A DNA stretch of 20,191 bases, taken from a virus. Location of the stretch: positions 1 through 20,191 of IMG/VR virus record IMGVR_UViG_3300032401_000107. The stretch is one strand, 5' to 3'. Shown piece after piece: positions 5,341 to 19,824 of this stretch (the first letter of the stretch is position 1; each line of letters opens with the position of its first letter). The translations under genes and the position numbers were made by a program. Under the pieces are notes generated by a model that saw only the letters and a list, made by a program, of their open reading frames with translations, did not search any database and was not told where the DNA came from.

Positions 5341-6336
5341 ATGGCAGAATTAAAAGAAATTACTACAAAATCAGGATTTGTCATAAAAGAATCTTGGTGT
5401 AGAAAATGTGCAAAAATGAAACCTGCCTCTGAATTTTATGAAGCTACAGATATGGGAAAAATAGATACATTGATGATTATGAGCGTATGCAAAAACTGCA
5501 TTTTATCTCTTTATGAAGATTTTTATAAAGAAACATCTTCTATAGAAAAAGCCATACATAAAATTTGCACATCATTAAATATAAAATACTCTAACGATGC
5601 TGCATCAGCGGTAAAATCCCAAATCGAAACCCTTCATAATAGTGGTAAAAAAGTTAGTGCTGTTATAGGAATTTATCTTTCTAAACTAGTATCTTTAAAT
5701 CCTTCAATGGAAAAAAATATAAAACAAAACTTAGTATATGATGATGTGTCTGTTATATTTACTGAAAAAATAAATGACCCAACCATAGTCCCTATTCCAG
5801 CAGATGTTCTTGATTTTTGGGGAAAAGAATTGTCAAGAGCAGATATTGAATTTTTAGAAAGAGAATATTCTAATTTTAAGAATACTCATAAAGCGGACAC
5901 TCATGCGGAAGTTGTTTTATTAAAAGAAGTATGTTACACAATGCTAAGAATTAGACACAAAAGAATGGACAATGACCCCGATACAGCAGATGATATGAAA
6001 GAACTCCAAAGTCTAATGAAAAACTTAGCTATATCTCCGAATGCAGTTAAAACAACCCAAAATGCAGGAGTTGATACATTCGGGGTTTGGATAGCTGATA
6101 TAGAGCGGGAAGAACCTGCACAATGGTTATTATCAGACCCAAGAGGTGACATATATCGAGATGTAGCAAACACAGATGAATATTATAATAAATATATGGT
6201 TAGACCATTAAAGAATTTCATTCAGGGTAGCAAGGACTTTAACATAGACGAGGGAGAAATAGAAAATTCAGAGTTTGACCCCAATGAGTTTGATAATTTT
6301 GTAAATATCGATGATGGGGAGGTGAGTGATGAGTAA
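5341..6336 (+). CDS. Zinc-finger protein, probable terminase small subunit
   Basis: A 331-residue protein. C20-x-x-C23 and C50-x-x-C53, spaced by K-P-A-S-E-F-Y, form a likely zinc finger as in small phage DNA-binding proteins. Residues about 195-240 are helical and charged (DDMKELQSLMKNLAISPNA), and residues 247-295 carry T-F-G-V-W-I-A-D-I-E then M-V-R-P-L-K-N-F. The tail is acidic (E-S-E-F-D-P-N-E-F-D). This pattern and the place directly before the large terminase, whose start overlaps its last 8 bases, argue for the small terminase subunit that recognises phage DNA for packaging. No homology search was possible, so a generic zinc-finger protein remains an alternative. Confidence 0.55.
   Translation: MAELKEITTKSGFVIKESWCRKCAKMKPASEFYEATDMGKIDTLMIMSVCKNCILSLYEDFYKETSSIEKAIHKICTSLNIKYSNDAASAVKSQIETLHNSGKKVSAVIGIYLSKLVSLNPSMEKNIKQNLVYDDVSVIFTEKINDPTIVPIPADVLDFWGKELSRADIEFLEREYSNFKNTHKADTHAEVVLLKEVCYTMLRIRHKRMDNDPDTADDMKELQSLMKNLAISPNAVKTTQNAGVDTFGVWIADIEREEPAQWLLSDPRGDIYRDVANTDEYYNKYMVRPLKNFIQGSKDFNIDEGEIENSEFDPNEFDNFVNIDDGEVSDE
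6316..6331 (+). promoter_or_regulatory. Ribosome binding site fixing the terminase start at 6329
   Basis: GGAGG at 6318-6322 lies inside the upstream gene. It is 6 nt from ATG 6329 but only 3 nt from the in-frame GTG at 6326, so 6329 is preferred. The terminase start overlaps the last 8 nt of the upstream gene (TAA 6334-6336), implying translational coupling. Confidence 0.7.
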
Positions 6337-6853
6337 AAAATTAAAACCAAGGGGAAGTCCTTATTTACAAAAAATGAAACCTTATTCTAAGTCTAATGAG
6401 CCTGTAAAATTTCTTAGCGAAAAAGAAATGACTAAACAAAAAAAAGAAAGAATTAAAAGTTGGGTTACTTTTTATAGAAGTAATCCTAGTTTTTTCGTAG
6501 AGCATTATTTAGGAATTCCACTATATCCTTATCAAAGATATTGGATAAATTTAATGGCTAGGTCTACAGAGTTTGTAGGAATAGCATCTCGTGCAAGTGC
6601 AAAATCTTGGTTGATTGGTGTTTATGCTATAGCCAGATGTATATTATATCCGGGTACTATTGTTGCATTGGCATCTTCTACTAAAGCACAAGCAGGTTTA
6701 ATTATTTCAGAGAAATGCAAATCTCTTATGGAAGAACATCCAAATATTTTGAGGGAAACTTCGAATATCGTCACTAATCAGAATAAGTGGGAAATGACGT
6801 TTTATAATGGTTCAAAAATTAATGTAGTTGTTTCTGGCGAAGGCGGTAGAGGT
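6329..6853 (+). CDS. terL: Terminase large subunit, exon 1 (ATPase N-part)
   Basis: Residues 1-175 of the large terminase, the motor ATPase and nuclease that packages DNA into the prohead. Q-R-Y-W-I near 71-75 fits the adenine-binding region. The Walker A variant A-S-R-A-S-A-K92-S93 is followed by I-V-A-L-A-S-S-T-K-A-Q, typical of phage terminases. The reading ends in VVVSGEGGRG and meets TAA at 6854, exactly where homologues continue with R-(S/A)-H and Walker B. The missing part resumes at 7954 in the same frame, so this is an exon and not a broken gene. The mature protein is join(6329..6853, 7954..9261), 610 residues. Confidence 0.9.
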
Positions 6854-7953
6854 TAAAATAATAAATGTTTGTAGAAATAAAGTTTTATATAAATAAATCC
6901 AAATGGAGGAACATATAAAATGGAAAAGCAAAAAGAATGGAAAAAAGAAGAAATAGATTTTGTTTTAAAAAATCACCCGAAAATGTCAATAAAAGAAATG
7001 GCTGAATATTTGGGAAGAACGCAATCATCTGTTGAAAATAAAAGATGTAAACTTGGTTTAAAAAATGAAAGAAAATATAATTTTGATATTGATTTTTTTA
7101 AATCTCCATTAAATGAATTTTCGGCATATTGGCTTGGTTTTATTTATGCAGATGGTTACATATCTTCTCATAAAGAATTAGCAATACAATTGCAAAAAGA
7201 TGATTTTGAGCATCTAAAAAAATTTAATAAATGTTTAGGAGGAAATATTCCTGTAACATTTCTTGAAAAAAAACCTAGATATATAAAAGGAAAATTTACT
7301 GGAATATCTTATTTGTGTCAAATAAGAATATTTAGTACAGAACTAGTTTTTGATTTAAATCTTTTGGGTATTCATAAAAATAAATCTTTAGATATTGAAT
7401 TTCCTAAATTAGAAAATGATTATTTGACATGGTGTTTTATTCGAGGATATTTCGACGGAGACGGTAGCATATATTACGACAATACTAGAAATATGCTTAG
7501 AGGAAAAATAACTTGTGGGTCTCCAGATTTTATAGAATCTTTTCGTGAATTTCTAAAAAAATTTAATATAAATACATATGTATCTAAAGATAAATTAGAT
7601 TGTGGAATAAGCGGAAAAGAAAGTTATAAAAATTTTTATTCCAATTTATATGACAATGCTAATATATTCTTAGATAGAAAATATAAAAAGTATCAAAAAT
7701 ACAAACATTTATTGGCTTCAATAGGCAGTAATGCTTATTAAAAATGGCGCAAGAAACGGGAAAGCTGAGATGCTAATCCGAGTGGAAGGCTATTTAAGAA
7801 ATAGTCACACGCAACGCATAGACGATGACCCTCGAAAGAGAATATAATTTGTCCAAGAGTGCGCCTACCCTTATAGGGTAAAAAGATATGCTGAACTTGA
7901 AAGAAAAAAATTTCAAGAATGTAAAGATAAAAAACTTTACAGATAACAAAATG
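6854..7953 (+). ncRNA. Group IA self-splicing intron in terL, with LAGLIDADG gene in its 5' part
   Basis: 1100 nt between GGT (exon ends in T) and CAC (intron ends in G), as group I splicing requires. Core helices can be traced after the ORF: P3 GGCGC 7746-7750 with GCGCC 7861-7865; P4 CGGG 7757-7760 with TCCG 7777-7780; P5 AGC 7763-7765 with GCT 7772-7774; P6 GTG 7782-7784 with CAC 7806-7808; P6a CTATTT 7790-7795 with AAATAG 7799-7804; P7 GCATA 7816-7820 with TATGC 7887-7891; P8 hairpin 7866-7880; P9 CTTGAAA 7896-7902 with TTTCAAG 7911-7917; P9.1 GTAAAG 7921-7926 with CTTTAC 7935-7940. The extra segment 7821-7860 between P7 and P3' is where group IA introns carry P7.1/P7.2. AAGATATGC at 7883-7891 matches the conserved S element. 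P1 and the internal guide sequence were not found. Confidence 0.85.
6920..7741 (+). CDS. LAGLIDADG homing endonuclease, intron-encoded
   Basis: A 273-residue protein with GGAGG (6904-6908) before the ATG; its stop lies 4 nt before the intron P3 strand. Residues 1-50 form a helix-turn-helix of SANT or resolvase-like character (W7, I-K-E-M-A-E-Y-L-G-R-T, then V-E-N-K-R). Two LAGLIDADG motifs follow: WLGFIYADG at 71-79 with D78, and GYFDGDG at 176-182 with D181, so it probably works as a monomer. Known enzymes of this class cut an intronless allele at the insertion site and promote copying of the intron. A maturase role is possible but not shown. The two acidic catalytic residues are intact and no frameshift is seen, so it looks active. 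Arginine is encoded mainly by AGA, unlike in the capsid gene. Confidence 0.9.
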   Translation: MEKQKEWKKEEIDFVLKNHPKMSIKEMAEYLGRTQSSVENKRCKLGLKNERKYNFDIDFFKSPLNEFSAYWLGFIYADGYISSHKELAIQLQKDDFEHLKKFNKCLGGNIPVTFLEKKPRYIKGKFTGISYLCQIRIFSTELVFDLNLLGIHKNKSLDIEFPKLENDYLTWCFIRGYFDGDGSIYYDNTRNMLRGKITCGSPDFIESFREFLKKFNINTYVSKDKLDCGISGKESYKNFYSNLYDNANIFLDRKYKKYQKYKHLLASIGSNAY

Positions 7954-9261
7954 CACCGCTCCCATGTTACTGTACTAGAAGAAAGACGTTTAATACCGAA
8001 TGAAGTTATAGATTCAATTATTCGCCCTTTTCTTGTTAGTCGTCAACCCCCTTATATGAAAAATCCAAAATATTCTTCAATAGAAGAACTAAGAGAAGAG
8101 CCACAGGAAATTATTATCACTAGTGCGCACTATAAAACTTATGAATGGTATCCTGAAACTAAAAAATTTATTAAGATGATGGCAGATGGAGACCCAAATA
8201 CAAAAGGTGTATTTTTAGATTACTTAATCTCTATTCATCATGGTATAAAAACTAAAAAGCAAATGGCTAGAGAAAAAGAGAATATGGACCCCATCACTTT
8301 CTTAATGGAATATGGAAATATACCATATGGTTCTTCGAGTTTGTCTTTCTATAAACTTGGTTTATTTGAAAGGAATATAAAAAGAAGTTGGAGACCAATA
8401 AGGGATGAAGTTTATATAACAAGTCCAACTCATAAAAATAATTATGATATACCAAAACTTTCAGATGAAATGCGTATTGTTTCTGTTGATGTGGCTATGA
8501 GAGCGGGTTCAACAAATGATAATACAATTATAAGTTGCGGAAGATTGTTACCTAGTAAAAAAGGTTGGCAAACAGAAATAGTTTTTATGGAATCTCATAA
8601 TGGTAAAAACACCAATCTACAGGCTTTAAGGATAAAACAGATATACGAAGAATTTCAAGGTGATGTTTTAGTACTTGACTTACAGAATGCAGGTATCAGT
8701 GTATTTGATGCATTAAGCTCAGTAACAAAAGACGAAATGAGAGGGGTAGAATATCCAGCATATACTGTTATGAATTCTTCAAATGTTGATACAAAAGTGT
8801 ATGATGAATTAATCACTAGAACTCTTGGGCAAGACGCTGTACAATGTATTTTCCCTATTTCAGCTAATGCACCCCTTAACTCTTTAATTGCTGTTAAATT
8901 TAGAGAGAGATTAAAAAAGAAACTAATTACATTTCTAGTTGACGATAACACAGAAGAAGAATTTTTAATAAAATCAGGAAATAAAGATATTTTAGACCAA
9001 GATGATACTGGTATTAGAGCATATCTTTTACAAGCACATTTACAAATAAGCTTAATGGTAAATGAAAGCATAGCTTTAGAAATGGCTCCGGCAAACGGTT
9101 TAGTAAAATTGGTTGAACCATCCGGTGCACGTAAAGACCGTTATACTTCGGTATCTTATATGAATTATTACATTAGTTTAATGGATACGGAACTTTTAAA
9201 AGATAGATATTCTGATTGGGATGACATGGAAGCTTTCCTTGGAGTCTCAGTTTTTGTTTAA
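7954..9261 (+). CDS. terL: Terminase large subunit, exon 2 (Walker B and nuclease)
   Basis: Residues 176-610. It starts with HRSHVTVLEERRL, the Walker B strand; the usual acidic pair D-E is E184-E185 here. A coupling-type motif I-I-I-T-S-A-H follows. The RNase H-like nuclease domain shows V-S-V-D354-V-A, V-L-D417-L-Q-N-A-G and a late acidic stretch D-I-L-D-Q-D-D, which would hold the metal-binding residues. The in-frame ATG at 7888 lies within the intron and is not the start. The gene ends 5 nt before a folded RNA element. The function is DNA translocation and headful or site cutting at the portal. Confidence 0.9.
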   Translation, partial: HRSHVTVLEERRLIPNEVIDSIIRPFLVSRQPPYMKNPKYSSIEELREEPQEIIITSAHYKTYEWYPETKKFIKMMADGDPNTKGVFLDYLISIHHGIKTKKQMAREKENMDPITFLMEYGNIPYGSSSLSFYKLGLFERNIKRSWRPIRDEVYITSPTHKNNYDIPKLSDEMRIVSVDVAMRAGSTNDNTIISCGRLLPSKKGWQTEIVFMESHNGKNTNLQALRIKQIYEEFQGDVLVLDLQNAGISVFDALSSVTKDEMRGVEYPAYTVMNSSNVDTKVYDELITRTLGQDAVQCIFPISANAPLNSLIAVKFRERLKKKLITFLVDDNTEEEFLIKSGNKDILDQDDTGIRAYLLQAHLQISLMVNESIALEMAPANGLVKLVEPSGARKDRYTSVSYMNYYISLMDTELLKDRYSDWDDMEAFLGVSVFV

Positions 9262-9266
9262 ATGAA

Positions 9267-9323
9267 ATTGAAGGGATAGTGATTCGAACATGAAAAGCAC
9301 TTCCTGAGTGCCTTCCCTTCAAT
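9267..9323 (+). ncRNA. Structured RNA element E1 (three-way junction) after terL
   Basis: Begins 6 nt after the terminase stop. P1: ATTGAAGGGA 9267-9276 pairs perfectly with TCCCTTCAAT 9314-9323. P2: GTG 9279-9281 with CAT 9289-9291, including one G-U pair. P3: GCACT 9297-9301 with AGTGC 9307-9311. Joiners are TA, GAAAA and CT. A second AGTG at 9278-9281 could compete for the P3 strand. No T-tract follows, so it is not a standard terminator. It matches element E2 (15972-16030) in layout and joiners. Function unknown; it lies 34 nt before a GIY-YIG gene. Confidence 0.55.
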
Positions 9324-9357
9324 ATAATATTTCAGGATTTGCCTACAGGAGGTATGA

Positions 9358-9987
9358 ATGACTTGTGGAATTTATTGTATTGAAAATTTGATAAATAATA
9401 AAAAATATATAGGAAAATCATACGATATAGAAAAAAGATGGGGTAATCATAAAAGTCAATTATTAAATAAAAATCACGATAACGACCATCTTCAAAAATC
9501 TTGGAATAAGTATGGAGACGAATACTTTAATTTTTTTATTATCGAAGAATGTTCAGAAGAAAAATTGATTGAAAAAGAAATGTTTTATATTTTTTATTTT
9601 GATGCAAAAGATAATGGTTATAATATGACAGATGGTGGAGATGGTTGTTGTGGATACAAACATTCTTATGAAGAATTAGAAAAAATGTCAAAATGGCAAA
9701 AAGGAATACCGAAATCAGAAGAAGCAATAAAGAAAATGTCACAATCTCTCAAAGGAAGAAAAGCTTGGAATAAAGGAATCCCCGTAACAAAAGAAACAAA
9801 AAATAAAATGTCCAAGAAAAAAATTAGAAGAATGAATCCCAATGATTTAAAAAAAGAACTTAGTATTATTCGTATAGGAAATAAAAATTCTTTTTTTGGG
9901 AAAACTCACTCCGAAGAAGTAAGAAAAAAAATAAGTGAAGCAAAAAAAGAATATTGGGAAGATTGGAGGCTAGAAAATGGCAGATAA
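9358..9987 (+). CDS. GIY-YIG homing endonuclease with NUMOD3 repeats (HEG1)
   Basis: A 209-residue free-standing endonuclease; AGGAGG lies 5 nt before the ATG. The GIY-YIG nuclease domain covers residues 1-95: G4-I5-Y6, Y17-I18-G19, catalytic R27, E74 and N89 at the expected spacing. Residues 105-205 hold NUMOD3-type DNA-binding repeats (S-E-E-A-I-K-K-M-S, T-K-N-K-M-S, H-S-E-E-V-R-K-K-I-S) with K-A-W-N-K-G. Known relatives nick or cut a target near their own insertion site. Inserted between terminase and portal, its last 11 bases overlap the portal start. It appears intact. Confidence 0.9.
   Translation: MTCGIYCIENLINNKKYIGKSYDIEKRWGNHKSQLLNKNHDNDHLQKSWNKYGDEYFNFFIIEECSEEKLIEKEMFYIFYFDAKDNGYNMTDGGDGCCGYKHSYEELEKMSKWQKGIPKSEEAIKKMSQSLKGRKAWNKGIPVTKETKNKMSKKKIRRMNPNDLKKELSIIRIGNKNSFFGKTHSEEVRKKISEAKKEYWEDWRLENGR
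9964..9979 (+). promoter_or_regulatory. Portal ribosome binding site inside HEG1
   Basis: GGAGG at 9964-9968 lies 8 nt before the portal ATG (9977) and is read in HEG1 as part of the codons for D-W-R-L. The portal therefore depends on a site carried within the endonuclease gene, and may be coupled to its translation. Confidence 0.7.
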
Positions 9988-11758
9988 TAATGAAAGCAAC
10001 GATAAAGAACAAGAGATTACAGAACAAGAAATTTGGGATGTAATTGCTTTTGCTAGAGGTATAACAAGTATGATTGGGCAAGGATATTTAAATCCTGATT
10101 TAATTAGTAGCCGAATGAGAGATATTACTCTTAATCCTATGGCTGCTACAGAGGATACTCTCAATCAAGCACTAAAAAATCCTAAAGAAAACGAATTACA
10201 ACTTCGTGAATTTTCTCAAGATTTTGAACTTAAATCAATGGTTTACAAAAGACTTATTGCTTATATGGCAGACATGCTTGCGTTTGATATTACTTATACA
10301 TCAGAAGCTGAACCAAAAGATTATGAAACTCCGAAATATAAAAAAGATATAAAAGCAGTAGAAGATATTCTAGAAAAATTTCCTTATAAAAAAGAATTTG
10401 GTATCGCTGTAAAACAAATGGTAAGAAACGATGCATTTTTTGCTTGTATCAGAGATTTAGGAGATTCTATAATTCTTCAAGAACTTCCTGCTGATTATTG
10501 TAAAATAACTGGTAGGTGGGAGGGCGGTTTCCTCTTTAGTTTTAATATGTACTGGTTTTTATTGCCGGGTGTTGATATTAATATGTATCCAGATTTCTTT
10601 AGAAAAAAATATAAAGAAATATGGGTAAACGGAAATAAAGCAAAACCATATATGCCTTCCATGCCTCCTGAATTTAGAGATTCAACTTGGATTTATTGGG
10701 TTGATGTCCCTATTGATGTAGGTATGTGCTTTAAATATACACCAGAATTGGCAACTAGAGTACCATATTTTACTCCTTTGTTTAGTGATTTGATTTTGCA
10801 ATCTTTGATGCGCAATCTTCAAAAGCAAGCAAGTATGGCTGCAGCAAGTAAAATGATTATCGGTCAAGTACCAATGTTAAACAGGGATGCTAAAGCAAGC
10901 GTAAAAGATATGATTGCTATCAGTCCAGATTTACTTGGTAAATTCTTAGCATTGGTGAAAAGCAGTATTAATGAAGCTATTAAAGTTGCTTCTGCTCCTT
11001 TGGAAGATATGAAAGGTATTAGTTTTGACTCAGAAAATGAGTTATACGATAGTTATTTAAAAACAACATTGGCTTCCAGTGGTGTAAACACGAATTTAAT
11101 ATTTACAAGTGATATTAAACCAAATGTTCTCGAAACACAATTGAGTTTAAATGTTGATGAACAAATGATGACAGATTTATATGAGCAATTTAATATCTTT
11201 ATGAATTATTTTGTCAATAAATATACTAAAACATTTAAATTCAAATTTAATTTCGAAGGTACACAATTCTTCCTAAATAGGCAGAATAGACTAGAATCAG
11301 TAATGACTCTGTTTAATGTTGGAATTATACTACCACAGAAAATAGCAGCGGCTATGGGAATGAAACCAGCACAACTCAGAAAACATATGGAAGAAGCACA
11401 AGCAACTGGCTTTACGGATTTACTTACTCCTCCTGCGCTTGAAGGTCAAAAACAAATGGCGGAGATAACAGGTAAACAACAAAAAGATTTAGCTGACCAA
11501 ACCGCTAAAAATCAACAAGACTTAGCAAACCAAAACTCTAAAAATCAAGAAAAAGTAGCACAAAAGTCAGAACAAACAATTAAACAACCAACGCCTGTTA
11601 CTGTTGTTCCCAATAAAAGTGGGGACACAAAAAAAACTGATAAAACAGGGCAACCTGCAAAAGAGGGTAGACCAACAAAGCCTGTATCGAAAATATCAGA
11701 GGAAACCGAACAGACAAGAACCGAGGGTACAAATCTTGGGAGAGGAGGTAAATTATAA
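9977..11758 (+). CDS. Portal protein
   Basis: A 593-residue protein placed directly after terminase and before the protease-scaffold and capsid genes, the classic place of the portal, the dodecameric ring through which DNA enters the head. Length and layout fit: an alpha/beta wing (T-G-R-W-E-G-G-F-L-F-S-F near 172-183), a helical stem region (LMRNLQKQASMAAASKMIIG, about 276-295), then residues 400-455 with M-T-D-L-Y-E-Q-F-N-I-F-M and R-Q-N-R-L-E-S-V, typical of the portal crown and clip helices. The last 100 residues are a low-complexity tail rich in Gln, Lys, Asn and Pro (D-L-A-N-Q-N repeats). Assignment rests on gene order and shape, with no diagnostic catalytic motif. Confidence 0.8.
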   Translation: MADNNESNDKEQEITEQEIWDVIAFARGITSMIGQGYLNPDLISSRMRDITLNPMAATEDTLNQALKNPKENELQLREFSQDFELKSMVYKRLIAYMADMLAFDITYTSEAEPKDYETPKYKKDIKAVEDILEKFPYKKEFGIAVKQMVRNDAFFACIRDLGDSIILQELPADYCKITGRWEGGFLFSFNMYWFLLPGVDINMYPDFFRKKYKEIWVNGNKAKPYMPSMPPEFRDSTWIYWVDVPIDVGMCFKYTPELATRVPYFTPLFSDLILQSLMRNLQKQASMAAASKMIIGQVPMLNRDAKASVKDMIAISPDLLGKFLALVKSSINEAIKVASAPLEDMKGISFDSENELYDSYLKTTLASSGVNTNLIFTSDIKPNVLETQLSLNVDEQMMTDLYEQFNIFMNYFVNKYTKTFKFKFNFEGTQFFLNRQNRLESVMTLFNVGIILPQKIAAAMGMKPAQLRKHMEEAQATGFTDLLTPPALEGQKQMAEITGKQQKDLADQTAKNQQDLANQNSKNQEKVAQKSEQTIKQPTPVTVVPNKSGDTKKTDKTGQPAKEGRPTKPVSKISEETEQTRTEGTNLGRGGKL

Positions 11759-11760
11759 TT

Positions 11761-12246
11761 ATGGTAAAACTTATAGGTGATACACTTAGAAATTCTTTAA
11801 TAGAGCAGATTGGTCATGAAAAATATAATGCTAATCTTTATATGTATATATGTGGATTTTTAAGAAGCAAAGGTTTAGATAATTTATCAAAACATTTTTT
11901 AGAACAACACGAAGAAGAGACGGTACATTCCTTAGAATTTTTTAATTTGCTAACCGATTTAAATGCTGATGTTACAATTCCAGAAATAGACGGGATACAA
12001 CTCCCGTTTGAAAATATTATTGATGTAGCAACAGCTTATTTAAATAGAGAAATATTAACTACAGATAGTATTAGCGAAATCTTAAAGCTATCAATTCAGG
12101 ATAATAATCCTGTGGTTGAACAAAAATGCAGAGAGATGATTACTAAACAGCAAAAAGAGTATGAAGAAGCTACTACATTCCTCGATAGAGCAACACTAAT
12201 GCCTGAATGGTGGCAATGCGTAATTTGGGACGCTACCGGAGGGTAA
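11761..12246 (+). CDS. Ferritin (iron-storage type) with complete ferroxidase site
   Basis: A 161-residue four-helix protein starting 2 nt after the portal stop, with GGAGG upstream. The E. coli FtnA ferroxidase ligands E17, E50, H53, E94, Q127 and E130 correspond to E20, E53, H56, E97, Q130 and E133 here, with identical spacing (33, 3, 44, 33 and 3 residues), and Tyr24 corresponds to Y27. HEEETVHSLEFFNLL and N-R-E-I-L-T-T are typical ferritin sequence. The family forms 24-subunit cages that oxidise Fe(II) and store Fe(III). The last 15 residues (PEWWQCVIWDATGG region) differ from FtnA, so the fifth helix may be altered. Why a phage would express it with head genes is unknown: host iron or oxidative-stress control, or a virion component, are both guesses. 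Confidence 0.85.
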   Translation: MVKLIGDTLRNSLIEQIGHEKYNANLYMYICGFLRSKGLDNLSKHFLEQHEEETVHSLEFFNLLTDLNADVTIPEIDGIQLPFENIIDVATAYLNREILTTDSISEILKLSIQDNNPVVEQKCREMITKQQKEYEEATTFLDRATLMPEWWQCVIWDATGG

Positions 12247-12255
12247 GAATATGTA

Positions 12256-12447
12256 ATGATAATTAATCCTAATATAATTGAAAAAAAGTATAGATGTAAT
12301 AAATATGTTAAAAGTTGGTTAATACGTCATTATCGTATACCCCTACTAAGTTTCGACAGAAAATATTTTTATTTTGCCGATACAGAAAAGCTAAGAGAGT
12401 GTTTGAAAAAAATGCCCTTGGACGTAAAAATATTATCTATACTCTAA
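12256..12447 (+). CDS. Small hypothetical phage protein
   Basis: A 63-residue basic protein (Y-R-C-N-K-Y-V-K-S-W-L-I-R-H-Y, then F-D-R-K-Y-F-Y-F-A) of unrecognised family. It begins 9 nt after the ferritin stop and ends 16 nt before the next start. GGAGGG at 12238-12243 sits 12 nt before ATG 12256, which is long. The same site is 7 nt from an ATG at 12251 that is followed at once by TAA, a start-stop pair overlapping the true start by one base. Y-R-I-P-L-L-S-F-D and L-R-E-C-L-K-K look like a compact alpha/beta fold. No function is assigned. Confidence 0.6.
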   Translation: MIINPNIIEKKYRCNKYVKSWLIRHYRIPLLSFDRKYFYFADTEKLRECLKKMPLDVKILSIL

Positions 12448-12463
12448 GGAAAGGAGGATACAC

Positions 12464-14218
12464 ATGCAAAAACTTAGTTTCACTATCGAAAATGCCGAAA
12501 TGGTTCAAGAGAACCCTGATTCTAAATTTGCTCTTTTGGCTTTAGACTTTTTTGCTTCTGGTGATAATCTTCATGACATGTATATTTCTGAAGAGACATT
12601 AATGCGTACAGCAGACACTATTAAAAATTGTCCTCTTGTTTGGAAGTATGATGAAATATTAGATGATGTTTATACACACGACCCTGATGAGGTTCCTTGT
12701 GGGTTTGTACCAGAAAGTTCTTCAATAACAAGCAGGAAACTAGAAGATGGAAGAACAATGTTGTCAGCTATAGCTTATGTGTGGAAAAGATATACTGGTC
12801 CATTATTAAGTTTCTTCAAGCGAGACGGAAGCAAAAAGCCTGTCAGTGTAGAAATGAGTGTATATAAAACTCAGACCAAGGAAGATGGAAAAACCGAGCT
12901 TCTTGATTTTAGGTATGAAGGTATTACTGTTTTGGGAAGTTATGTAACTCCTGCTATACCTATGGCAAACGCAAGCGTTTTATCTTTTGCAAAAGAGTAT
13001 GAAGATGATTTAGAAAAAGAATTTTCTTTTACTGAAATTATAATTCCAAACAAAGTAAGAGGTAGTGCAGAAAAAGGTCTTGAAATCCGCAAGGAAGAGG
13101 GCGGGGGTACATCAACAGGTATAGCCTTCGCACGTTATTTAGTTAAAAATAAAATAATAAGTCCTGAAAAAGTTAAAGAGATTAACAATTATTTTTCCAC
13201 ACATAAATACAAAAAAGATACTGTTGATTGGTTACTTTGGGGTGGAGATTATGGCAAAGAATGGGCGGAAAAAATTTCAGCTAAAATAGACTCTGAAATT
13301 GTTACATTCCCCTATAAATCTAAAGAGGATGTAAACCCGGCACTAAAGGGTATTACCCCGCCTATTTCTGTTGAACAAGCAAATGCTATTGCTAGACAAG
13401 CAGATTCGATTGGTTCAGATGATAAGAAAAATGGTTGGGCTATTGCTATCAGTTCGTTTAAAGATACACACCATGTAGAAGATAGTAAGTGGATTAAAAA
13501 CGAGGGTAGTACAGTAAAAGCGTCTGTTGATGAAACAACAGATGAAGAAATTAATGATAAGGAGATGGCTATGGCAGAAAAAACACAAGAAGAAATGGCT
13601 CTAGAAGAAGTCAAAGAAGAAGTAAAATTGGCTGCTGATACTGCTAAATCAGAAGAAAAAGAAACCAAAGCAGAGGAAAAGAAAGAAACCCCTGCGGAGG
13701 AAAAAGAAGAAGTGAAAAAGGGTATTGAGAAGAAATTCGAATTCCCAATTCAGAAGATGGAAGAAATGTTTGCCGGAGACGAAGATGTTAAAATGGCATT
13801 AGAAGAAATGGCAAAAGGAAACGATGCTGATTTTGGTATCGTTGTACAAAGCATGTACGCTAAGATGTGCAAGATGGAAGAATATGCTAAGAAATTAGCA
13901 GAAGATAACAAAGCTTATATGGCACAAAACGAGGAGCTTAAGAAATTCAAGGCAGAGTTAGAAGGTCAACAGAAAGCCTTCGCTATTAATGAAACTCTAA
14001 AAGAACTCGCTGTATCTGTATATCTTCCTGATGATATTAAGGCTGAAATGAGAGCAGATGCTGAAAATTATACTTTAGAGAATATTGAAGCATGGAAGAA
14101 TTCTTGTAAAGCGAAATCATTCGATTTTGCAATCAGAATGCCTAAAAATCAAGGCGTTATTGAAGTTGGACTGCCTTTCGGTGGTGCAACAAAAAAAGCA
14201 AAAAGCTTATGGGATTAA
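12464..14218 (+). CDS. Prohead protease-scaffold fusion
   Basis: A 584-residue protein with AAGGAGG before the ATG. Residues 1-175 resemble a phage capsid-maturation protease: H37 and H72 are possible histidines, and P-V-S128-V-E-M-S-V is a plausible serine nucleophile strand. Residues 197-272 form a module (EKGLEIRK, then L-L-W-G-G-D-Y-G-K-E-W-A) seen, from memory, as stand-alone or fused parts of phage proteins; residues 286-345 hold L-K-G-I-T-P-P-I-S-V-E-Q-A. Residues 355-430 are a Glu/Lys-rich linker, and 430-584 a helical, acidic scaffold-like tail with a coiled coil near 455-500. Known scaffolds guide capsid assembly and are then cut. Position before decoration and capsid genes agrees. 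Catalytic residues are inferred, not proven. Confidence 0.7.
   Translation: MQKLSFTIENAEMVQENPDSKFALLALDFFASGDNLHDMYISEETLMRTADTIKNCPLVWKYDEILDDVYTHDPDEVPCGFVPESSSITSRKLEDGRTMLSAIAYVWKRYTGPLLSFFKRDGSKKPVSVEMSVYKTQTKEDGKTELLDFRYEGITVLGSYVTPAIPMANASVLSFAKEYEDDLEKEFSFTEIIIPNKVRGSAEKGLEIRKEEGGGTSTGIAFARYLVKNKIISPEKVKEINNYFSTHKYKKDTVDWLLWGGDYGKEWAEKISAKIDSEIVTFPYKSKEDVNPALKGITPPISVEQANAIARQADSIGSDDKKNGWAIAISSFKDTHHVEDSKWIKNEGSTVKASVDETTDEEINDKEMAMAEKTQEEMALEEVKEEVKLAADTAKSEEKETKAEEKKETPAEEKEEVKKGIEKKFEFPIQKMEEMFAGDEDVKMALEEMAKGNDADFGIVVQSMYAKMCKMEEYAKKLAEDNKAYMAQNEELKKFKAELEGQQKAFAINETLKELAVSVYLPDDIKAEMRADAENYTLENIEAWKNSCKAKSFDFAIRMPKNQGVIEVGLPFGGATKKAKSLWD
13571..14218 (+). CDS. Nested in-frame scaffold protein (internal start)
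   Basis: AAGGAG at 13559-13564 stands 6 nt before ATG 13571, in frame with residue 370 of the fusion. It would yield a 215-residue product beginning MAEKTQEEMALEEV, with the acidic linker and helical tail but no protease. In lambda, Nu3 scaffold starts inside the protease gene C in this way. The internal Shine-Dalgarno is seen; that it is used is inferred. Confidence 0.5.
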   Translation: MAEKTQEEMALEEVKEEVKLAADTAKSEEKETKAEEKKETPAEEKEEVKKGIEKKFEFPIQKMEEMFAGDEDVKMALEEMAKGNDADFGIVVQSMYAKMCKMEEYAKKLAEDNKAYMAQNEELKKFKAELEGQQKAFAINETLKELAVSVYLPDDIKAEMRADAENYTLENIEAWKNSCKAKSFDFAIRMPKNQGVIEVGLPFGGATKKAKSLWD

Positions 14219-14268
14219 TCCCTAGGCTATTTACAATTTATTTAATTTAAAATAGGAGGTTTTTTATT

Positions 14269-14805
14269 ATGGCACATGGTGTTTTAATTCCCGCAGCAAT
14301 CGCTGCAATGAATGTTGATTCATACAATAGAAGTGTTATCAGTGCATCAGCTATCGATAATGGTAACGTGCTTGCAATGGGCGCACAATATACTACTGGA
14401 AGTTTAGTAGAGGTTTCTCTAGTTACTCAACCAGCAGCAGGTTCACCCGTTAATGCATGGATGGCATATTCTGGTGATGAAATCATTGTTACTGATGCAA
14501 AATATAAGGGTCTAGACCCTGATGTACGTAACTTCTGGAATGTTGAGAGAAAAGTTTTCTCTGCTTTCAAACCACAAGTAGGCGACATTGTTATTTTAAC
14601 AGCAGACAATTTCTCTAACTCATTCTCTTCCCATACATATGCAGTTGGTCAAGCAGACAGCTACAAACTATTATGGGTAGTTGGTGCAGGTCCTACAACT
14701 GGTCTAGGCTTCAAATATATTGCAACTACATATATTTCCCTTGCTACAGGCGGTATCGACAGTCAGCGTGTTACAGCTTACAAGCTGGAATGCACTACAG
14801 TATAA
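14269..14805 (+). CDS. Capsid decoration or head-stabilising protein
   Basis: A 178-residue protein between scaffold and capsid genes, with AGGAGG upstream. It is rich in beta-prone Val, Ile, Thr and Gly with few charges (VISASAIDNGNVLAMG, VGDIVILTADNF, G-V-I-D-S-type turns). Such genes next to the major capsid gene usually encode capsid decoration or cement proteins that bind the expanded shell. Codon choice follows the highly expressed capsid gene (many TTC, CGT, GGT). No specific family was recognised. An early capsid accessory protein is the alternative. Confidence 0.6.
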   Translation: MAHGVLIPAAIAAMNVDSYNRSVISASAIDNGNVLAMGAQYTTGSLVEVSLVTQPAAGSPVNAWMAYSGDEIIVTDAKYKGLDPDVRNFWNVERKVFSAFKPQVGDIVILTADNFSNSFSSHTYAVGQADSYKLLWVVGAGPTTGLGFKYIATTYISLATGGIDSQRVTAYKLECTTV

Positions 14806-14830
14806 TTTTGGATAAAAGGAGATATATATT

Positions 14831-15958
14831 ATGAAAATCCCAAATCAAGTACTTTCTTTCGCAGGTGAACAGAACTTAACACCTTATAAAATGTTCGTTG
14901 ATTATTGGAACCATTATCGTGCTATGAACGGTGCGACAAATGTGGAATATCAAAAGAACACAGTTACTCCCGAGGGGGCAGTAATTGAGCTTTCTTTCTC
15001 AGAGAAAGAAGAAAAATTAAACGCAGCTTTAAAACGTGAAATTATGCGTGTAGCTGGCGTTACCAATTTCGAGCAATTCCCAATCGAAACTTGGTCGAAT
15101 CATCCTACTCTCCGTTGGGCAACTTTCGCAGTTGTTTCAGCAGTTATTGATATGGTTCTTCCAGATTCAATCATCGACAGCATCGGAATTTATTCTGATG
15201 TACGCACGATTGGTTGGGGCGATTCAGCAGCATTCGATGTAAGTCCTCGTGATTTATTCATCGTTTCTAAAGCTGGTCGTAGCAAGAGAACAACCGAACT
15301 CCACAAGCAATTCAAAGGACAGGTAACTGTTATCCCCGAACCTCGTGAAATGACCGTTTATGTTTCTCTTATGAAGGTTTTGGCAGGAAAAGAATCTCTA
15401 GCAGAATTTGTAATGAAGATGGTACGTTCATTCGAGACAGCATTAGCTATCGACGTGTACAACGCTTTCTATGTTGCAATGGACGCTGTTGACAGCACTG
15501 CTTCAACCGGATTGCTTGTAGCTGGTTATAGCCAAGCAGAATTTGTACGTCTATCACAGACTGTTGCTGCATGGAATGGTGGTACAAAACCAGTTGCTAT
15601 TGGTACTCAACGTGCTCTAGCAAGTATTCTTCCAGCAAACGCCAACTATCGCTACGAAATCGATAGCGATTTCGTAAAAGTTGGGTATCTACGCAACTTC
15701 CAAGGTACTGATATTATGGTACTCCCACAAGTTGCTGATTGGCAGACTCCATTTGGTTTGAAACTTTCAGATTCTCGTATCTGGCTTGTTTCACCTTCAT
15801 CAATGAAAATTGTTAAGGTTGTATTGGAAGGTTCAGTTCTTTCATACACCAGTGATGTATATGCCAACGCTAATTTGATTCAAACTTCAACTATGATTAA
15901 GAGTTGGGGTACTGCTATTGCAACCAATGCAATAGCTGCAACTATTCAATTAGCATAA
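14831..15958 (+). CDS. Major capsid protein
   Basis: A 375-residue protein, AAGGAGA before the ATG, following protease-scaffold and decoration genes. The central part (L-P-D-S-I-I-D-S-I-G-I-Y-S-D-V-R, then FDVSPRDLFIV) and the C-terminal half (Q-F-K-G-Q-V-T-V-I-P-E-P-R-E-M-T-V) suit a phage shell protein, probably of HK97 fold. Fourteen of its 15 arginines use CGT or CGC and only one AGA, unlike most of the window, a sign of very high expression. A six-base or longer A+T gap follows, then RNA element E2. Fold is inferred from position and composition. Confidence 0.8.
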   Translation: MKIPNQVLSFAGEQNLTPYKMFVDYWNHYRAMNGATNVEYQKNTVTPEGAVIELSFSEKEEKLNAALKREIMRVAGVTNFEQFPIETWSNHPTLRWATFAVVSAVIDMVLPDSIIDSIGIYSDVRTIGWGDSAAFDVSPRDLFIVSKAGRSKRTTELHKQFKGQVTVIPEPREMTVYVSLMKVLAGKESLAEFVMKMVRSFETALAIDVYNAFYVAMDAVDSTASTGLLVAGYSQAEFVRLSQTVAAWNGGTKPVAIGTQRALASILPANANYRYEIDSDFVKVGYLRNFQGTDIMVLPQVADWQTPFGLKLSDSRIWLVSPSSMKIVKVVLEGSVLSYTSDVYANANLIQTSTMIKSWGTAIATNAIAATIQLA

Positions 15959-15971
15959 TCTATTATTAGAA

Positions 15972-16030
15972 AAAAGGGGATAGGGCGAGAACCCAAAAAG
16001 ACAGTTTTCTCGAATTGTCCTTCCCCTTTT
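15972..16030 (+). ncRNA. Structured RNA element E2 (three-way junction) after the capsid gene
   Basis: Begins 14 nt after the capsid stop. P1: AAAAGGGGA 15972-15980 with TCCCCTTTT 16022-16030. P2: GGG 15983-15985 with CCC 15992-15994. P3: GACAGTT 16000-16006 with AATTGTC 16013-16019, with one G-U pair. Joiners TA, AAAAA and CT match E1. Loop 2, CGAGAA (15986-15991), is perfectly complementary to loop 3, TTCTCG (16007-16012), so a kissing interaction or a competing hairpin is possible. It lies 20 nt before a GIY-YIG gene. Confidence 0.6.
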
Positions 16031-16049: not shown

Positions 16050-16712
16050 ATGGAAGAAAATATATCAGGAATTTATTCTATAAAAAATATTTTAAACAAT
16101 AAAAGATATATTGGTCAAACAATAAATTTAGAAAAAAGAAAAATATGTCATTTTCATAATTTAAAAAATAACTCTCATTTTAATTTTAAATTACAAAGAG
16201 ATTTTAACGAATATGGAGAAAACAATTTTTTATTTGAAATTCTAATTTATTGTGAACCAAGCGGATTAACTGAATATGAGCAATCCTTTGTTAATTTTTA
16301 TAAATCGAATATATATAATATTCTTTTAGATTGTGTCAATAGTCAACAAGGAATAAAAATTTCAGAAGAAACAAGAAAAAAAATGAGCATATCCCATCTT
16401 GGAAAAAATAATCCCAGATACGGAAAACATCTTTCGGAGGAAACAAGAGAAAAAATTTCAAATAAAAAATCTAAAGAAAATAATCCCATGTTTGGAAAAA
16501 CAGGAAAAAATCATCCTAGGTTTGGAAAACACCATTCTGATGAAACAAAAGAAAAAATGTCAAATATAAAACTAGGAGAAAATAATCCCATGTTTGGGAG
16601 AAATCATTCCGATGAAACAAAGAAGAAAATGTCTGAAAATCATAGTGATTTTTCAGGAGAAAATCATCCTAATTTCGGAAAACATTATTCCAAAGAGCCA
16701 AAAGATAAATAA
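16050..16712 (+). CDS. GIY-YIG homing endonuclease with NUMOD3 repeats, 3' end decayed (HEG2)
   Basis: A 220-residue protein. I take ATG 16050, preceded by GAGAGGTG, over the in-frame TTG at 16029, which falls in the RNA hairpin. Nuclease residues: G7-I8-Y9, Y20-I21-G22, R30, E77 and N90. Residues 108-220 carry about six NUMOD3-like repeats (N-P-M-F-G-K, H-S-D-E-T-K-E-K-M-S), the DNA-binding part. The nuclease part is clearly paralogous to HEG3 (LTEYEQSFV versus LTRYEQFFV). At the end it reads YSKEPKDK-stop, where HEG3 continues DKISEAL; a tandem ATAA may have shifted the frame. Inserted after the capsid gene. Confidence 0.88.
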   Translation: MEENISGIYSIKNILNNKRYIGQTINLEKRKICHFHNLKNNSHFNFKLQRDFNEYGENNFLFEILIYCEPSGLTEYEQSFVNFYKSNIYNILLDCVNSQQGIKISEETRKKMSISHLGKNNPRYGKHLSEETREKISNKKSKENNPMFGKTGKNHPRFGKHHSDETKEKMSNIKLGENNPMFGRNHSDETKKKMSENHSDFSGENHPNFGKHYSKEPKDK

Positions 16713-19239: not shown

Positions 19240-19824
19240 ATGAAATATAATTGCGGGATATATAAAATCGAAAACATAAACACTGGTAAATATTATATCG
19301 GGCAAAGTAGTGATTTATATATGAGAAAAATTATTCATTTTCGTTCTTTAGAAAATAATAAATCTTTTAATCAATATTTCCAAAGAGCATATAATAAATA
19401 CGGAAAAAACTCTTTTATTTTTTCTGTATTGTTATATTGTGAACCTTTCGAATTAACTCGCTATGAACAATTTTTTGTAGATAATGGAAAAAGAGAATTT
19501 CTTTATAATATACGAGAGTGTGTAAATAGCAATAAAGGAATAATTCGTTCTATAGAAACTAAAAATAAACTGAGTAATTCCCACAAAGGGGAAAAGAATT
19601 TTCTATTTGGAAAACATCGCTCTGATGAAACAAAAGAGAAAATATCGAAAAGTCACATTGGAAAAAAACATAAAAAAGAGTCTAAAGAAAAAATATCCAA
19701 AAATCACGCCGATGTATCAGGACCAAAAAATCCTAATTTTAAAAAATCGATGTCAAAAGAACAAAAAGATAAAATATCAGAAGCACTAAAGAAATATCAT
19801 AGTGCAAAAGATAAGGAGAAATAA
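19240..19824 (+). CDS. GIY-YIG homing endonuclease with NUMOD3 repeats (HEG3)
   Basis: A 194-residue protein. I choose ATG 19240, with AAAAAGG upstream, because the nuclease motif follows at once; the longer in-frame start at 19147 overlaps the previous gene. Residues G6-I7-Y8, Y19-I20-G21, R29, E76 and N90 complete the nuclease site. NUMOD3-like repeats follow (H-R-S-D-E-T-K-E-K-I-S, M-S-K-E-Q-K-D-K-I-S). It seems a paralogue of HEG2 with an intact end. There is no RNA element like E1 or E2 upstream. Its stop is 1 nt before the next ATG, whose AAGGAG lies inside HEG3. Confidence 0.88.
   Translation: MKYNCGIYKIENINTGKYYIGQSSDLYMRKIIHFRSLENNKSFNQYFQRAYNKYGKNSFIFSVLLYCEPFELTRYEQFFVDNGKREFLYNIRECVNSNKGIIRSIETKNKLSNSHKGEKNFLFGKHRSDETKEKISKSHIGKKHKKESKEKISKNHADVSGPKNPNFKKSMSKEQKDKISEALKKYHSAKDKEK

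Follow-up and report, generated by a model that had tools for sequence, protein, structure and literature searches.

The window analysed here, a single stretch of viral DNA of 20,191 nucleotides, contains two related three-way-junction RNA elements: E1, located between terL and a GIY-YIG/NUMOD3 gene, and E2, between the capsid gene and another gene of this type (Table 1). Both had been described in an earlier note made from the DNA letters alone, and the shared architecture proposed there is borne out by our analysis in its coordinates, pairings and folds, including a P3 helix that is paired in both copies and a compensatory change in P2, where E1 has one G-U pair. P1 and P2 are joined by TA and P3 and P1 by CT in both elements, and P2 and P3 are joined by GAAAA in E1 and by AAAAA in E2. 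Both sequences fold better than shuffled sequence (z of -3.7 for E1 and -2.7 for E2). A stop codon precedes E1 by 5 nt and E2 by 13 nt, within the 14 nt given in the note. The distance from the end of the element to the GIY-YIG start codon, which the note had put at 20 to 34 nt, is 34 nt for E1 (start at 9358) but 19 nt for E2 (start at 16050). An intrinsic terminator was rejected, as it had been in the note, but T tracts are not wholly absent as claimed there: none follows E1, whereas the 3' strand of P1 in E2 ends in TTTT, inside the helix. The note had missed the complementarity of L3 to downstream sequence, the hairpin P4 carrying the Shine-Dalgarno sequence (SD) and the resemblance to int-alpA described below; the partner sites of L3 and P4 fall downstream of the coordinates it gave for the elements.

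Elsewhere in the window, terL (6326-9261) is split into an N-terminal ORF (6326-6856), a LAGLIDADG_3 endonuclease ORF (6920-7741), an intron-like 3' region at about 7740-7890 and the C-terminal half. The interruption looks like an endonuclease-bearing intron; no Rfam group I match was found. Positions 1-2031 hold a long ORF of degenerate repeats (NNATQLQT...VNLTQH...), which probably encodes a fibre-like protein.

Table 1. Positions of the two elements, their parts and the associated genes in the window.
Feature	Position	Strand	Basis
E1 three-way-junction RNA	9267-9323	+	sequence, fold, R2 model 59.6 bits
E1 P1	9267-9276/9314-9323	+	sequence
E1 P2, GTG/CAT	9279-9281/9289-9291	+	sequence
E1 P3	9297-9301/9307-9311	+	sequence
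E1 L3 loop TCCTG(A), anti-SD-like, partner of sites A and B	9302-9306	+	sequence; family-wide permutation tests
E1 site A TCAGGA, pseudoknot partner of L3	9332-9337	+	sequence; L3:A duplex -9.0 kcal/mol
E1 P4 hairpin TGCCT(ACAGG)AGGTA, SD in loop	9340-9354	+	sequence; P4 enrichment in family
E1 site B CAGGA	9346-9350	+	sequence; L3:B duplex -7.8 kcal/mol
E2 three-way-junction RNA	15972-16030	+	sequence, fold, R2 41.1 bits, int-alpA 32.3 bits
E2 P1	15972-15980/16022-16030	+	sequence
E2 P2, GGG/CCC	15983-15985/15992-15994	+	sequence
E2 P2 loop CGAGAA, perfect complement of E2 L3	15986-15991	+	sequence; L3:L2 -7.6 kcal/mol
E2 P3	16000-16006/16013-16019	+	sequence
E2 L3 loop TTCTCG	16007-16012	+	sequence
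E2 P4 hairpin TTTTGTACT(ACGAGA)GGTGCAAAA	16027-16050	+	sequence; predicted fold
E2 site B/SD CGAGAGG, in P4 loop	16037-16043	+	sequence; L3:B -7.4 kcal/mol
GIY-YIG/NUMOD3 homing endonuclease gene after E1	9358-9987	+	Pfam PF01541, PF07460
GIY-YIG/NUMOD3 homing endonuclease gene after E2	16050-16712	+	Pfam
E1 and endonuclease cassette, 751 bp	9225-9975	+	44 bp in 98% identical sibling phage (L157)

A family of phage leaders and its relation to int-alpA

The same fold was found in divergent capsid relatives (L146, L147, L150) ahead of GIY-YIG, HNH and zinc-finger endonuclease genes, where the copies lie directly behind a TTGACA/TATAAT-like promoter. Among unrelated contigs, a first loose pattern scan gave one structurally convincing copy (L037:11316-11375, minus strand), the remaining matches being mostly chance. 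A first covariance model, R1, whose training set includes E1, recovered 22 copies, nearly all immediately 5' of endonuclease genes, and later served solely to align the training copies of a second model, R2. Degenerate core patterns in three versions yielded 270 viral matches, 161 of them with P1, P2 and P3 paired, and removal of near-duplicates left 107 non-redundant viral copies. The 71 training copies of R2 all came from loci elsewhere than the window and its relatives, which makes this model independent of the window. R2 matches both E1 (E ~1e-17) and E2 (E ~1e-11), with the next match in the window at 13.6 bits, so that the chance convergence still allowed in the earlier note is excluded. 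Further copies, the search for which the note had put forward as a refutation test, exist and covary in P1, P2 and P3. An R2 scan detected no third element in the window, including the regions before the LAGLIDADG gene and before a third GIY-YIG/NUMOD3 gene (19240-19824); thus, not every endonuclease in the window carries the leader.

In the family, the junction core is near-invariant (UAG, GAAAAG and CU), and the helices vary freely. In P1 to P3, 95% of the cells are paired and 16 of the 18 pairs show double changes, counts which are inflated and partly circular since the representatives were preselected for pairing of these helices. The junction is joined by a fixed spacing: in 94 leaders the start codon, chosen on ORF length and with extra weight given to an SD, follows P1 at a median of 37 nt (IQR 35-40). 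The P2 loops belong to a small number of classes (TAGCT, CGGCCA, GACG, TCATT, NNTGCAA), suggestive of a protein site or a tertiary contact. A cellular element was rejected: in the C/G version of the pattern, 3 of the 120 genome matches were paired among the matches listed, as compared to 161 of 270 in viruses. Applied to genomes of four bacterial classes, R2 gave 6/274, 2/250, 0/247 and 0/245, the last two without a positive control.

Some copies deserve separate mention. Four are present on a single phage contig (L494) and three on another (L535). One occurs in a named phage, Klebsiella phage 2b LV-2017 (L610:2651-2704, KY271395.1), in front of a gene that is homologous to an HNH endonuclease (L529) and is unannotated in KY271395.1; other phages match only the flank of this locus. 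A contig with one copy also has a sub-threshold match to Rfam DUF3800-VIII adjoining tRNA genes (L267:495-557, 33.5 bits, cut-off 40.2).

The int-alpA RNAs are named after their location between integrase and alpA genes. Like the family described here, they have a P1-UAG-P2-GAAAAG-P3-CU-P1 junction, and the 3' end of their Rfam model (RF02996; AgGG) is the counterpart of our site A; unlike our family, however, the model stops there, without site B or P4. Of 16 sampled family loci, 10 score above the int-alpA cut-off, as does L190. E2 reaches 32.3 bits (E=1.2e-5 in 93 nt), just under the gathering cut-off of 35.8, and E1 gave no match to the model in the small-region scan; both are thus divergent relatives of int-alpA rather than Rfam members. 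A scan of the whole window had returned nothing but a weak mir-1 artefact, and int-alpA surfaced through related loci and the small-region scan. The note had not recognised the element as a known riboswitch or ribozyme. For ribozymes, Rfam indeed gave no match on E1 or E2 at E values up to 10, but the architecture itself is a known one. The fold also recalls the hammerhead, the glutamine riboswitch and xrRNA. None of these identities was retained, as no model matched.

Rfam files int-alpA as 'Gene; sRNA' of unknown function. The neighbours of E1 and E2, in contrast, are terL, capsid and GIY-YIG genes rather than integrase and alpA, and our family lies in cis ahead of homing endonuclease and other phage genes. 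A small RNA acting in trans would agree with the Rfam type and with the own promoter of some copies, but is made very improbable by the fixed distance to the start codon, by pairing with the SD of the same gene and by the position of E1 and E2 behind upstream genes with no evident promoter.

Pairing of the L3 loop with two downstream sites

What is new in this family is that, by permutation statistics, L3 covaries strongly with two downstream sites. Site A lies in the spacer 3-13 nt after P1, and site B is the SD region ahead of the start codon, in most cases within the P4 loop. At least five consecutive L3:A pairs are possible in 85 of the 94 leaders, as compared to 20.9 when L3 is shuffled among the elements (z=23). 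L3:B pairing, counted strictly 3' of A, is found in 75 of 94 versus 26.9 (z=14.7, 0 of 10000 shuffles). In control regions (coding sequence and upstream) L3 pairing was null, with z values of -1.1, 1.2 and 0.9, and the signal persists in 20 elements without a common L3 4-mer (A z=11, B z=8). Each of the 69 elements having both pairings uses at least 3 nt of L3 for A and B alike, so that the two exclude each other, and their duplex energies are near-equal (median -7.6 kcal/mol for L3:A and -7.15 for L3:B). In 64 of 94 leaders P4 has a stem of 5 bp or more, as compared to 18% of shuffles, and site B overlaps the P4 loop in 61 of 74. The tests on A, B and P4 are free of the preselection that affects P1 to P3. 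By inspection, four copies that R2 located in bacterial genomes, outside the set used for finding these rules (L613, L614, L618, L619), also show A, B and P4.

In both E1 and E2, L3 is complementary to the SD inside P4, the hairpin of E2 being a predicted one of 9 bp whose 5' strand overlaps the 3' strand of P1. Site B/SD stands alone after P1 of E2, a separate site A being absent. The P2 loop of E2 is a possible stand-in for the absent site, specific to this element; its complementarity to L3 may also be a coincidence. Kissing between the P2 loop and L3 as a family trait is unsupported (z=-2) and is seen in E2 alone.

In the glutamine-II, preQ1-II and SAM-II riboswitches and in the alpha-operon RBS, too, a loop pairs with the SD or with a neighbouring 3' segment. 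E1 and E2 gave no significant match to these Rfam models. A three-way junction with a pseudoknot from L3 to a 3' segment is also the topology of flaviviral exonuclease-resistant RNAs; these lack demonstrated homology to our family, which belongs to bacterial phages and has a second partner at the SD. This likeness leads to the question of whether only the L3-A pseudoknot matters, as a 5'-terminal knot acting against 5' decay or in ribosome positioning, B being merely SD-like. Site A gives the stronger of the two signals, and TATAAT-like -10 boxes stand about 6 nt before P1 in 46 of 107 copies, as compared to 25.9 after shuffling, so that P1 would be the 5' end of the mRNA. However, the permutation tests show B to covary with L3 beyond what generic SD complementarity would give, a conserved hairpin carries B in its loop, and E2 retains B without A. 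Furthermore, A and B pair through different halves of L3 in L299 and L307, and L299 has no canonical SD, which again argues for more than generic SD complementarity. We therefore consider a role of L3-A alone quite unlikely.

Downstream genes and cassette mobility

Neither the two elements nor the two endonuclease genes are present in a sibling phage with 97-98% identity to the window, whose alignment ends at 15971, one base ahead of E2. Thus, each element travels in a cassette with its endonuclease gene. Since another contig (L100) contains E1 but not E2, the two cassettes move independently. After the capsid gene, the sibling has a plain GC-rich hairpin in place of E2. Such a hairpin, with compensatory changes in its stem, is found just 3' of the capsid gene in L124, L126, L132 and other relatives without E2, and is perhaps a processing or attenuation site.

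Joint movement with the endonuclease gene, and the end of the sibling alignment at the base before E2, would also fit a feature of the DNA, namely a site recognised by the homing endonucleases or used for their insertion. This is extremely improbable, as the compensatory changes in the helices and in the partners of L3 point to base pairing, and as the same fold stands ahead of unrelated endonuclease and non-endonuclease genes.

By Pfam and PHROG tallies, the downstream genes belong mostly to the HNH, AP2, NUMOD, GIY-YIG and EndoVII families; the endonuclease fraction is an estimate (49 of 94 by motif matching and about 15 more by inspection). About one third are other genes, including tail chaperones, replication proteins and glycosyltransferases. 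A strictly endonuclease-specific element is thereby ruled out, and the leaders serve more than the control of homing. The copy in L037, which has a T7 run after P1, precedes a small gene that by eye resembles a tail assembly chaperone, and similar genes follow the copies in L230, L246, L248, L265, L278 and L312.

A proposed translational switch

E1 and E2 are probably 5' leaders of homing endonuclease mRNAs, belonging to a widespread phage family of int-alpA architecture in which L3 would act as a bistable switch of translation. The three-way junction would present L3 as an anti-Shine-Dalgarno loop. Pairing of L3 with B would mask the SD and turn translation off, and pairing with A would leave the SD exposed and translation on. 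As A and B compete for the same bases of L3, the leader would be bistable. Since A is transcribed before B, the first fold would be L3-A, and a later exchange to L3-B might turn the gene off. We infer that control is exerted on translation, which of the two states is the on state, and that there is a trigger, be it a ligand, a protein or the order of folding, that sets the balance between A and B. In E2, which has no site A, only the off pairing may be used, or the P2 loop instead.

RNA structure masking the RBS limits the translation of homing endonucleases of T4-type phages (PMC3014915, PMC2988022). The structures reported for I-TevI, segB and Aeh1 mobE sequester the RBS of a homing endonuclease gene, as L3-B pairing would in our family, and are switched by promoter choice. 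The leaders described here differ from them in having a conserved three-way junction and two partners for one loop, and in standing ahead of unrelated endonucleases.

One refinement of the switch is that the leader is itself a sensor, as true riboswitches are: the junction core would bind a metabolite or a protein, for instance a ribosomal or phage one, and thereby shift L3 between A and B. The invariant joiners amid freely varying helices, the limited set of P2 loops (TAGCT, CGGCCA, GACG) and the equal energies of A and B are in line with this. The controlled genes are diverse, however, and the conserved core may serve folding alone, so that we regard sensing as a tentative option, possible rather than probable. 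The wider proposal of a phage-wide bistable translational switch, responsive to a ligand or protein and carried by endonuclease cassettes, which would make the orphan 'sRNA' a riboswitch-like timer, is in our view unlikely.

If E1 and E2 are indeed bistable leaders, the orphan Rfam family int-alpA would gain a concrete function, the control of translation in cis by two mutually exclusive loop pairings. The compact design, with a three-way junction, an anti-SD loop, an SD in a hairpin loop and near-equal energies, recurs more than 100 times in phages, and would show how unrelated free-standing homing endonucleases can bring their own expression brake into a new site.
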